Origin: Lineus longissimus
Lineage: Eukaryota > Nemertea > Pilidiophora > Heteronemertea > Lineidae
NCBI RefSeq assembly: GCF_910592395.1
Contig: NC_088326.1
Location: 3,599,001-3,663,000, forward strand
DNA length: 64,000 nt
Reading direction: 5' to 3'
Part shown: piece after piece, positions 34,001-40,000 of the stretch
Numbering within the stretch: position 1 is the first letter of the stretch
How the letters are laid out: every line of letters starts with the position of its first letter
Made by a program: the position numbers and the translations under genes
The notes under the pieces: model-generated
Seen by the model: the letters and a program-made list of their open reading frames with translations, nothing else
Database searches by the model: none
Told to the model about the DNA's origin: nothing

Positions 34001-37000
34001 AGTTGTCAACTCGGTTACAGATGAGGGATTCATCATAAAGGCACTTCTTATTGGCACAACGGAACTGGCACGCTGAAACAGACATGTTAGAGATGAGCCA
34101 CTTGTCATAAAGGCACTTCTTATTGGTACAGGGAACTGACACGCTGAAACAGACATGTTAGAGATGAGCCACTTGTCATAAAGGCACTTGTTACTGGTAC
34201 AGGGAACTGACACGCTGAAACAGACATGTTAGAGATGAGCCACTTGTCATAAAGGCACTTCTTACTGGTACAGGGAACTGACATGCTGAAACAGACATGT
34301 TAGAGATGAGCCACTTGTCATAAAGGCACTTCTTATTGGTACAGGGAACTGGCACGCTGAAACAGACATGTTAGAGATGAGCCACTTGTCATAAAGGCAC
34401 TTCTTATTGGTACAGGGAACTGACACGCTGAAACAGACATGTTAGAGATGAGCGACTTGTTATAAAGGCACTTCTTATTGGTACAGGGAACTGACACGCC
34501 GAAACAGACATGTTAGAGATGAGCGACTTGTCATAAAGGCACTTCTTATTGGTACAGGGAACTGACACGCTGAAACAGACATGTTAGAGATGAGCCACTT
34601 GTCATAAAGGCACTTCTTATTGGTACAGGGAACTGACACGCTGAAACAGACATGTTAGAGATGAGCCACTTGTCATAAAGGCACTTCTTATTGGTACAGG
34701 GAACTGACACGCTGAAACAGACATGTTAGAGATGAGCCACTTGTCATAAAGGCACTTCTTATTGGTACAGGGAACTGACACGCTGAAACAGACATGTTAG
34801 AGATGAGCCACTTGTTATAAAGGCACTTCTTATTGGTACAGGGAACTGACACGCTGAAACAGACATGTTAGAGATGAGCCACTTGTCATAAAGGCACTTC
34901 TTATTGGTACAGGGAACTGACACGCTGAAACAGACATGTTAGAGATGAGCGACTTGTCATAAAGGCACTTCTTATTGGTACAGAGAACTGACACGCTGAA
35001 ACAGACATGTTAGAGATGAGCGACTTGTCATAAAGGCACTTGTTACTGGTACAGGGAACTGACACGCTGAAACAGACATGTTAGAGATGAGCCACTTGTC
35101 ATAAAGGCACTTGTTACTGGTACAGGGAACTGACATGCTGAAACAGACATGTTAGAGATGAGCCAGTTGTCATAAAGGCACTTCTTATTGGTACAGGGAA
35201 CTGACATGCTGAAACAGACATGTTAGAGATGAGCCACTTGTCATAAAGGCACTTCTTATTGGTACAGGGAACTGACATGCTGAAACAGACATGTTAGAGA
35301 TAAGCCACTTGTCATAAAGGCACTTCTTATTGGTACAGGGAACTGGCACGCTGAAACAGACATGTTAGAGATGAGCCACTTGTCATAAAGGCACTTGTTA
35401 CTGGTACAGGAAACTGGCACGCTGAAACAGACATGTTAGAGATAAGCCACTTGTCATAAAGGCACTTGTTATTGGTACAGGAAACTGGCACGCTGAAACA
35501 GACATGTTAGAGATGAGCCACTTGTCATAAAGGCACTTCTTATTGGTACAGGAAACTGACACGCTGAAACAGACATGTTAGAGATGAGCCAGTTGTCATA
35601 AAGGCACTTCTTATTGGTACAGGGAACTGACACGCTGAAACAGACATGTTAGAGATAAGCCACTTGTCATAAAGGCACTTCTTATTGGTACAGAGAACTG
35701 ACGCGCTGAAACAGACATGTTAGAGATGAGCCAATTGTCATAAAGGCACTTCTTATTGGTACAGAGAACTGACACGCTGAAACAGACATGTTAGAGATGA
35801 GCGACTTGTCATAAAGGCACTTCTTATTGGTACAGGGAACTGACACGCTGAAACAGACATGTTAGAGATGAGCCAGTTGTCATAAAGGCACTTCTTATTG
35901 GTACAGAGAACTGACACGCTGAAACAGACATGTTAGAGATGAGCCACTTGTCATAAAGGCACTTTTTACTGGAACAGGGAACTGACATGCTGAAACAGAC
36001 ATGTTAGAGATGAGCCACTCGTCATAAAGGCACTTCTTATTGGTACAGGGAACTGGCACGCTGAAACAGACATGTTAGAGATGAGCCACTTGTCATAGAT
36101 AAAGGCACTTCTTATTGGTACAGGGAACTGACACGCTGAAACAGACATGTTAGAGATGAGCGACTTGTTATAAAGGCACTTCTTATTGGTACAGGGAACT
36201 GACACGCCGAAACAGACATGTTAGAGATGAGCGACTTGTCATAAAGGCACTTCTTATTGGTACAGGGAACTGACACGCTGAAACAGACATGTTAGAGATG
36301 AGCCACTTGTCATAAAGGCACTTCTTATTGGTACAGGGAACTGACACGCTGAAACAGACATGTTAGAGATGAGCCACTTGTCATAAAGGCACTTCTTATT
36401 GGTACAGGGAACTGACACGCTGAAACAGACATGTTAGAGATGAGCCACTTGTCATAAAGGCACTTCTTATTGGTACAGGGAACTGACACGCTGAAACAGA
36501 CATGTTAGAGATGAGCCACTTGTTATAAAGGCACTTCTTATTGGTACAGGGAACTGACACGCTGAAACAGACATGTTAGAGATGAGCCACTTGTCATAAA
36601 GGCACTTCTTATTGGTACAGGGAACTGACACGCTGAAACAGACATGTTAGAGATGAGCGACTTGTCATAAAGGCACTTCTTATTGGTACAGAGAACTGAC
36701 ACGCTGAAACAGACATGTTAGAGATGAGCGACTTGTCATAAAGGCACTTGTTACTGGTACAGGGAACTGACACGCTGAAACAGACATGTTAGAGATGAGC
36801 CACTTGTCATAAAGGCACTTGTTACTGGTACAGGGAACTGACATGCTGAAACAGACATGTTAGAGATGAGCCAGTTGTCATAAAGGCACTTCTTATTGGT
36901 ACAGGGAACTGACACGCTGAAACAGACATGTTAGAGATGAGCCAGTTGTCATAAAGGCACTTCTTATTGGTACAGAGAACTGACACGCTGAAACAGACAT

Positions 37001-40000
37001 GTTAGAGATGAGCCACTTGTCATAAAGGCACTTGTTACTGGTACAGGGAACTGACACGCTGAAACAGACATGTTAGAGATGAGCCACTTGTCATAAAGGC
37101 ACTTCTTACTGGTACAGGGAACTGACATGCTGAAACAGACATGTTAGAGATGAGCCACTTGTCATAAAGGCACTTCTTATTGGTACAGGGAACTGACACG
37201 CTGAAACAGACATGTTAGAGATGAGCGACTTGTTATAAAGGCACTTCTTATTGGTACAGGGAACTGACACGCCGAAACAGACATGTTAGAGATGAGCGAC
37301 TTGTCATAAAGGCACTTGTTACTGGTACAGGGAACTGACATGCTGAAACAGACATGTTAGAGATGAGCCAGTTGTCATAAAGGCACTTCTTATTGGTACA
37401 GGGAACTGACATGCTGAAACAGACATGTTAGAGATGAGCCAGTTGTCATAAAGGCACTTCTTATTGGTACAAAGAACTGACACGCTGAAACAGACATGTT
37501 AGAGATGAGCCACTTGTCATAAAGGCACTTGTTACTGGTACAGGGAACTGACACGCTGAAACAGACATGTTAGAGATGAGCCACTTGTCATAAAGGCACT
37601 TCTTACTGGTACAGGGAACTGACATGCTGAAACAGACATGTTAGAGATGAGCCACTTGTCATAAAGGCACTTCTTATTGGTACAGGGAACTGACACGCTG
37701 AAACAGACATGTTAGAGATGAGCGACTTGTTATAAAGGCACTTCTTATTGGTACAGGGAACTGACACGCCGAAACAGACATGTTAGAGATGAGCGACTTG
37801 TCATAAAGGCACTTGTTACTGGTACAGGGAACTGACATGCTGAAACAGACATGTTAGAGATGAGCCAGTTGTCATAAAGGCACTTCTTATTGGTACAGGG
37901 AACTGACATGCTGAAACAGACATGTTAGAGATGAGCCACTTGTCATAAAGGCACTTCTTATTGGTACAGGGAACTGACATGCTGAAACAGACATGTTAGA
38001 GATAAGCCACTTGTCATAAAGGCACTTCTTATTGGTACAGGGAACTGGCACGCTGAAACAGACATGTTAGAGATGAGCCACTTGTCATAAAGGCACTTGT
38101 TACTGGTACAGGAAACTGGCACGCTGAAACAGACATGTTAGAGATAAGCCACTTGTCATAAAGGCACTTGTTATTGGTACAGGAAACTGGCACGCTGAAA
38201 CAGACATGTTAGAGATGAGCCACTTGTCATAAAGGCTCTTCTTATTGGTACAGGAAACTGACACGCTGAAACAGACATGTTAGAGATGAGCCAGTTGTCA
38301 TAAAGGCACTTCTTATTGGTACAGGGAACTGACACGCTGAAACAGACATGTTAGAGATAAGCCACTTGTCATAAAGGCACTTCTTATTGGTACAGAGAAC
38401 TGACGCGCTGAAACAGACATGTTAGAGATGAGCCAATTGTCATAAAGGCACTTCTTATTGGTACAGAGAACTGACACGCTGAAACAGACATGTTAGAGAT
38501 GAGCGACTTGTCATAAAGGCACTTCTTATTGGTACAGGGAACTGACACGCTGAAACAGACATGTTAGAGATGAGCCAGTTGTCATAAAGGCACTTCTTAT
38601 TGGTACAGAGAACTGACACGCTGAAACAGACATGTTAGAGATGAGCCACTTGTCATAAAGGCACTTCTTATTGGTACAGGGAACTGGCACGTTGAAACAG
38701 ACATGTTAGAGATGAGCCACTTGTCATAAAGGCACTTGCTACTGGTTCAGGGAACTGACATGCTGAAACAGACATGTTAGAGAAGAAATATATTCAACTG
38801 GTTTCAAACTTACAAGTCACATTTTGTATGAAGTCTATTTCTTGTAGGACATCGGTGAAGACAGACGGTCGGAATGGGACGTCACATCCACTCGACATAA
38901 AGCTGCTGATACCGACCACACGCCACCGGCCGTGCTCATCTTGACACATCAACGGACCGCCGCTATCGCCCTGAAGTAAAAAACAGATACAGTAGAACCT
39001 TCCTATTGAGGACACCATCCGAACTGACAAATAATGTCGTTAACAACCAATTTGGGACCAAAACTAGTGTCCGCTAAGGGAGGTTCCACTGTATAGTAAA
39101 ACCTTGTTTCCATTCAATTTGACCTCTCTTATCAGGACACCTCTCTATCAAGGACAGAGCTGGTCAACGCCAAGGGGGGGGTTCTTAATAAGAGGTTCGG
39201 CTGTACTTAAAAGAGAGGTTGAGCATCTGTCCAAATCTCACTCCAAATTCCTCCCAAAGGTTGAATTACACTCCCCTAATGACGACTAAGTCCATGAGAA
39301 CCTCTCTCTGCAGCATTGTGTAAAACTGCATTTCTATTTTCCTTGACCACCAGCCTACCCCTTTAAAGGGAAAATATAGTCAGCAGCTAGGCAGGCAAGA
39401 AAATGTTACACAAAGTCGCCAATAGGGGTCTCTCACATCTCACAGTAGGTCGAAATGATTCACGCTTGTACGAGGAATATATTTAGTGCTGAATCTGACA
39501 TGACCCAGTGCCCTATACTGTGTATAATAGTCACCTGAAGATGGCCAAATTAGCACCTCTGCTCCTGCCTATAGTCTATAGCCTATAGTCCCCTTTAAGC
39601 AGCATATCTGCACTAGTGAGTACTTACGGGACATATCGAGATATATCCTGACAGATAGCCGGCACACAGGACGCTGGACGGGAGGGTGCCATTGTAGAAA
39701 TCTGTACTATTACATTTTGTTGTATTCCACAGTTGCATCTTGGCCTCTTGTAAATCATCGGGGACATTCTTCTCTGGAAGGACAATGTTTTACTTTGACA
39801 AGTCTGCATACTATACTATTTTCATAAGGTCGATTACGAATCTTCAGATCCCAAACCTATGTGGGATTTTCAGGGCAAACATGAGCGACGCTAAAATGCT
39901 GAAAATTTTGGAACATAATGATTGATACATAATCGATTGATGCTAAAGCGAAATATCGATATCAATGCTGATTAACCATTTATTCTTCCAAATATCACGA

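Follow-up and report, generated by a model that had tools for sequence, protein, structure and literature searches.

Tandem copies of an intron-exon boundary, termed mirages, are known from amphioxus, and they are reported to leave splicing undisturbed (PMC3087553, PMC3902484). The genes concerned are the globins BflGb6 and BflGb9, Adh3, troponin C and PGBD5 (PMC3087553, PMC3902484, in the portions available), with the mirages of PGBD5 and troponin C added by PMC3902484. According to the accessible part of PMC3087553, the BflGb6 mirage has six units in one haplotype and three in another, Adh3 mirage units are 10-72 bp long, and mirages are unstable in length and have homogenised centres. The same part of PMC3087553 cites the Rogers model, in which an intron is gained via tandem duplication of an AG/GT sequence. 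A comparable array, described here, is found in the nemertean Lineus longissimus. It lies in a window of 64,000 nt (the whole stretch of DNA that was analysed; assembly GCF_910592395.1, contig NC_088326.1, positions 3,599,001 to 3,663,000 of the forward strand), to which all coordinates below refer unless another sequence is named. The minus strand of the window carries a modular gene with trypsin, LDLa and MAM domains, and the array precedes one of the LDLa exons with dozens of copies of that exon's own 3' splice site.

The array is rather likely to be a large, probably near-neutral mirage (an intron-exon boundary minisatellite) that is spliced out as an ordinary intron. The original prediction, made from the letters of the window, had left open how splicing ignores the decoys. 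As a new puzzle this does not stand: the same structure is known as the amphioxus mirages, as described in the parts of PMC3087553 and PMC3902484 at hand. Among the titles and abstract openings of the literature matches listed, none is a report of this locus.

Structure of the 71-bp array

Tandem Repeats Finder returns a single array (34033-38783; period 71, 66.8 copies, 96% matches). Units were delimited by cutting at the branch-point core, which gives 66 full units plus a copy 67, formed by the real 3' splice site together with its exon (Table 1). Each unit begins with the branch-point-like TCTCTAAC, followed by a pyrimidine tract, usually a CAG, and then a homologue of exon nt 1-59. It is thus composed of 21 nt of intron end and a part aligned to the exon, and spans the real intron-exon boundary. 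The 19-nt core TCTCTAACATGTCTGTTTC, comprising branch point and pyrimidine tract, is invariant (67/67 copies), and a scan for degraded cores with up to four mismatches returned just these 67. The unit consensus differs from exon nt 1-59 by nine mismatches and a 1-nt deletion. Its local alignment score against the exon is 66, compared with a maximum of 24 over 500 shuffles of the exon.

These results bear out the prediction that the array is built from the 3' splice site of the LDLa exon and that the units carry a 1-nt deletion relative to it. Other details require correction. The array exists where it had been placed (34073..38790), but the repeat begins at 38783; the homology to the exon is real, but it covers nt 1-59 and not about 48 nt. 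The expected number of about 66 decoy acceptors agrees with the number of units, but the acceptor is CAG in only 61/66 of them (CGG in 4/66 and CAA in 1/66). Intact decoy acceptors therefore number 61, not 66.

The array contains 28 distinct unit types, and 19 of the 71 columns are variable. When the commonest unit was used as a query against the whole assembly (391,118,348 bases, 30 contigs), this locus alone was found, with 67 matches (repeat counts from this search are lower bounds). It is most improbable that the length of the array is an assembly artefact. Long near-identical blocks do occur within it, and PMC3087553, in the part available, notes one mirage that was apparently misassembled in an older draft. 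Against this stand the 28 unit types, the private differences between blocks and the clean joins at both flanks of the array; an error might alter the unit count, but it would hardly produce the array.

Selection of the real acceptor

The choice of acceptor is unusually well posed at this locus. The acceptor window cannot discriminate the real site, because 45 of the 66 decoys equal it exactly from -20 to +3; in unit 63 the identity extends from -97 to +12. The discriminating signal must sit outside the identical stretch, in donor distance, in exon sequence further downstream or in the order in which the sites are synthesised. In a 20-exon model of the gene, exons are 105-366 nt and the 18 other introns 215-3562 nt long, dimensions that generally favour recognition of the exon as a unit. 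The intron between the last exon of trypsin domain 1 and the LDLa exon measures 4741 nt and is occupied nearly throughout by the array. Exon ends in this model were assigned manually, on the basis of open frames and scores of splice sites, and are in part approximate; any missed exon (such as a possible SRCR exon) would make one of the model introns shorter.

The proposed explanation is that the acceptor is chosen by exon definition, with the array removed as an ordinary intron. The last acceptor alone has a strong donor at exon distance (105 nt), and decoys before the last two would start an "exon" hundreds or even thousands of bases long. Decoys 1 and 2 have handicaps of another sort: use of decoy 1 leaves an intron of 51 nt, and decoy 2 has CAA as its acceptor. 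Occasional use of a decoy would yield a stop-containing mRNA, presumably cleared by decay. Skipping of the LDLa exon would preserve the frame (phase 1-1), and this would aid tolerance of the array.

The predicted products support the earlier argument that decoy use breaks the frame. All 66 decoys run into a stop codon, 64 of them 92 nt past the start of the newly formed exon and two at 164 and 167 nt; this includes 21 decoys that are in frame by length. For the 64, the predicted product is a trypsin domain that carries a tail of about 31 residues (tails printed for decoys 1, 3 and 66). The frame argument is thus right for decoy use as judged from these translations, and exon skipping would be the milder failure mode.

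Several observations weigh against removal of the array as a near-neutral intron by exon definition. The last two decoys would yield exons of 176 and 247 nt, which fit the exon sizes of the gene, and exon definition alone should be insufficient to silence them. The core is without variation while 19 other columns vary, which exceeds a simple neutral expectation. In 3/66 units, a donor-like CCA/GTAAGA (the slash marks the splice junction) is found 20 nt past the acceptor; a weaker GTAAAA or GTAACA is present within 12 further units. Micro-exons of 20 nt running from a decoy acceptor to such a donor were considered and set aside, as 20 nt breaks the frame. Masking of the decoys by RNA structure was rejected, since the predicted fold of the last two units with the exon has a z-score of +1.29 and 182/200 shuffles fold at least as well.

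The decoys could instead be used, constitutively or in particular tissues, making the array a redundant switch that releases free protease in place of the LDLa-MAM remainder. The stop at 92 nt shared by 64/66 decoys would give a near-identical product whichever of these was used, and 61/66 acceptors are intact behind an invariant core. This switch is nevertheless quite unlikely, because the stop lies mostly far upstream of the next junction, where decay is generally expected, and regular splicing is reported for other mirages (PMC3087553, PMC3902484, in the portions available). A functional role for the decoys in the wider sense, either in soaking up splicing factors and thereby tuning how far the LDLa exon is used, or as the source of a common truncated trypsin with the approximately 31-residue tail, appears similarly doubtful. 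If it were true, the fast-changing copy number of a minisatellite would act as a heritable dial on splicing.

It is unlikely that the array disables the LDLa exon, with the mature mRNA joining the trypsin exon (phase 1 end) to the first MAM exon, which starts near 33754. The 105-nt exon has phase 1-1, and its loss would keep the frame, but it retains the six cysteines of an LDLa module and good splice sites. This intactness suggests that the exon is still in use.

The absence of variation in the core may be a sign of constraint and is treated here as a lead. If the core were under selection, the 66 UCUAAC/tract sites could form a multivalent platform for splicing factors that times the reaction, an arrangement compatible with use of the decoys as a switch. 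None of the 19 columns of the core is variable (P = 0.0009 for this segment; P = 0.015 for an invariant run of at least 20 columns anywhere). However, the segment was picked post hoc and the columns do not vary independently. Through exchange with copy 67, the sole acceptor under selection, the core could stay free of variants even if the decoys had no function, and the predicted RNA folding reveals no special structure. Selection on the core is accordingly judged very unlikely. The regulated kinetic or RNA-binding device that the original prediction had raised is likewise unsupported, given the z-score of the fold and a post hoc core for which there is a simpler reading.

The locus is of interest for splicing itself. 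Dozens of acceptors that match the presumed real one locally constitute a natural experiment, and the copy number is also unusual. Together with shorter or longer alleles, the locus would allow exon definition and scanning for the first acceptor to be compared in a natural gene. It is also an example of the size that a boundary repeat can reach with the surrounding reading frames still open.

Origin and growth of the array

The alignments above and the block copies within the array establish, at the level of the letters, derivation from the LDLa exon and block-wise internal duplication. Units 3-14 reappear 38 units on (2 mismatches), units 27-37 reappear 24 units on (1 mismatch) and units 13-21 reappear 7 units on (3 mismatches). 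The edges are distinct, as is usual in such arrays: unit 1 has two private variants, unit 2 is the sole unit with CAA, and the exon form is retained in copy 67.

Because the unit extends from TCTCTAAC to TCTGTAAC, we infer that the simplest founder event was recombination at the short similarity between these two sequences. The unit junction coincides with the shared TCT[C/G]TAAC. The proposed course of events is as follows. Intronic TCTCTAAC would have recombined with exonic TCTGTAAC, which is 72 nt away if the array is removed. One base would then have been dropped, so that the unit is now 71 nt because of the deletion that the units carry. Unequal exchange would finally have expanded the array to 66 units. 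A 72-nt unit is a multiple of three; a 71-nt unit is not.

The host gene

The positions of the array, its neighbouring exons and the other main features are given in Table 1. A hand-joined protein running from trypsin domain 1 to the LDLa exons at 26-25 kb matches Pfam Trypsin (E-value: 1.6e-56), MAM (E-value: 1.8e-69, two stretches) and LDLa (E-value: 3.1e-35, three stretches). This protein has four LDLa-like exons for the three LDLa stretches, and the output leaves unspecified which of them are matched. In the upstream region, of which two of three frames were scanned, Pfam detects two LDLa exons, at 45.4 and 43.6 kb, along with a sub-threshold SRCR match near 42.8 kb; the LDLa exon at 44.1 kb was assigned from its six cysteines. 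The gene contains an internal paralogue of the module that surrounds the array, with a Ser exon at 19876-19711, an LDLa exon at 19120 and an intron of 590 nt between them. The window's list of tandem arrays contains no array in this intron.

Table 1. Features of the Lineus longissimus gene and its boundary arrays (window coordinates; a slash marks the splice junction)
Feature	Position	Strand	Remarks
71-bp array	34094..38783	-	66 tandem units (65 x 71 bp and one of 75 bp), directly upstream of the real 3' splice site
Real branch point, tract and CAG	34073..34093	-	Same as decoy core
LDLa exon after the array	33968..34072	-	105 nt, phase 1-1; donor GTA/GTAAGT; six cysteines; includes SDEITLC
Exonic TCTGTAAC	34014..34021	-	Exon nt 52-59; presumed partner of intronic TCTCTAAC in the founder recombination
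Exon before the array (trypsin domain end)	38814..38970	-	GDSGGP...QNVT; phase 1 end; donor CTT/GTAAGT
Intron left if first decoy acceptor used	38763..38813	-	51 nt; 18 other introns at least 215 nt
LDLa exons	45.4, 44.1, 43.6 kb	-	
Trypsin domain 1	41.2-38.8 kb	-	
Two MAM domains	33.8-29.9 kb	-	Followed downstream by more LDLa exons and, after these, by additional trypsin and LDLa modules
Donor-side array	43837..44033	-	60-bp units with three identical GCA/GTAAGT; end of LDLa-like exon 44114-44007
Branch-point array	11047..11192	-	55-bp units; copies of the branch point and tract at the acceptor of the trypsin-3 Ser exon (exon starts 11045)

Other arrays in the gene and window

Two smaller arrays in the gene also repeat splice signals. 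The donor-side array of 60-bp units offers last exon bases at 44007, 43947 and 43887 in an open frame; splicing at one of the later donors would lengthen the protein by 20 or 40 residues and, unlike decoy use in the 71-bp array, would keep the frame. In the 55-bp branch-point array, both decoys have CAA and the real site has CAG. Within the window, the 12-mer CTAACATGTCTG is confined to this array (11069-11190) and the 71-bp array (34079-38780), with 69 exact copies and one with a mismatch, compared with 0.46 expected when up to one mismatch is allowed. The introns that hold these two arrays are not equivalent within the gene.

Further arrays lie close to exons. A 178-bp x 4 array (41229-41946) stops 23 nt short of the first trypsin exon's acceptor (41205). 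A 65-bp array (31913-32888) and a 19-bp array (28831-29815) begin 33 and 40 nt past the donors of the two MAM domains. The unit of a 46-bp array (43153-43335) holds TTGGTCCATATTACCCCACCC, which is also present just past the donor at 43454; this array is likely to derive from the start of the same intron.

Two candidate boundary arrays were not counted as such. The unit of a 57-bp x 8 array (51005-51461) ends in a tract, TTTCAG and 10 nt that are repeated after the last copy, and the three frames downstream have no Pfam match at an E-value of 0.05. In sequence L012 (8495-8640), a 72-bp x 2 repeat with the acceptor-like end TTGTTACAG is followed by several cysteine codons and GTAAGT, again with no Pfam match at this threshold.

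The window is rich in arrays, with 16 of score at least 200 and period at least 10 (13,632 bp, 21%), compared with 18 (6,410 bp, 3.2%) in a sample of twenty 10-kb segments of the same contig. In these 200 kb, no array of period at least 40 exceeds 7.6 copies. Among arrays with a score of at least 200 and a period of at least 35 (14 in the window, 12 in the sample), GTAAGT is not clearly enriched (window 2/14, 1.13 expected; sample 0/12, 0.64 expected), and neither is a branch point-tract-AG motif (window 3/14, 1.83 expected; sample 1/12, 1.7 expected). Splice motifs as general seeds of minisatellites were rejected on these small numbers. Nine arrays with a score of at least 200 lie in the gene span. 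Two overlap an exon boundary (1.08 expected, P = 0.30), four lie within 25 nt of one (1.89 expected, P = 0.10) and six within 50 nt (2.57 expected, P = 0.02). A preference of arrays for exon boundaries was not adopted, as the signal is weak and several exon ends are approximate. No claim is made that arrays are attracted to splice sites, because chance places about one of nine on a boundary in so exon-dense a gene and the motifs are not clearly enriched among arrays.

Comparison with known systems

A minisatellite with multiple donor sites that are used in transcripts is reportedly present in the human interferon-induced gene 6-16 (IFI6; Turri 1995). Its units bear splice sites, as do those of the 71-bp array, but the sites are reportedly donors and the unit short. 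Its nearer parallel would be the 60-bp donor array of the window, which is in frame. Ordinary intronic minisatellites, or variable number tandem repeats, share block duplication, a homogenised centre and a diverged edge with the array, which differs from them in that its unit holds exon sequence and an acceptor. In the Rogers model, as in this array, duplication adds splice signals; the array enlarges an existing intron and neither needs nor shows a new intron position.

The amphioxus mirages are the closest match. Both they and the array are tandem copies that span a boundary and carry splice signals, with mirages occurring at 3' or 5' sites, and the BflGb6 mirage has the same geometry as the array (the 3' end of an intron and the 5' part of an exon). 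Length polymorphism between alleles and somatic instability are further traits of mirages. Many but not all copies retain splice signals in mirages, and here CAG is kept in 61/66 units. The homogenised centre and excluded edges of mirages also have their counterparts in blocks of 9-12 units that differ by 1-3 mismatches and in the edge variants. In size, 66 units compare with six and three in the BflGb6 haplotypes and with the triplication of PGBD5 (3 x 108 bp), the comparison being limited to these. On its sequence, the Lineus longissimus array is best filed with the mirages, as a large case of a known kind.

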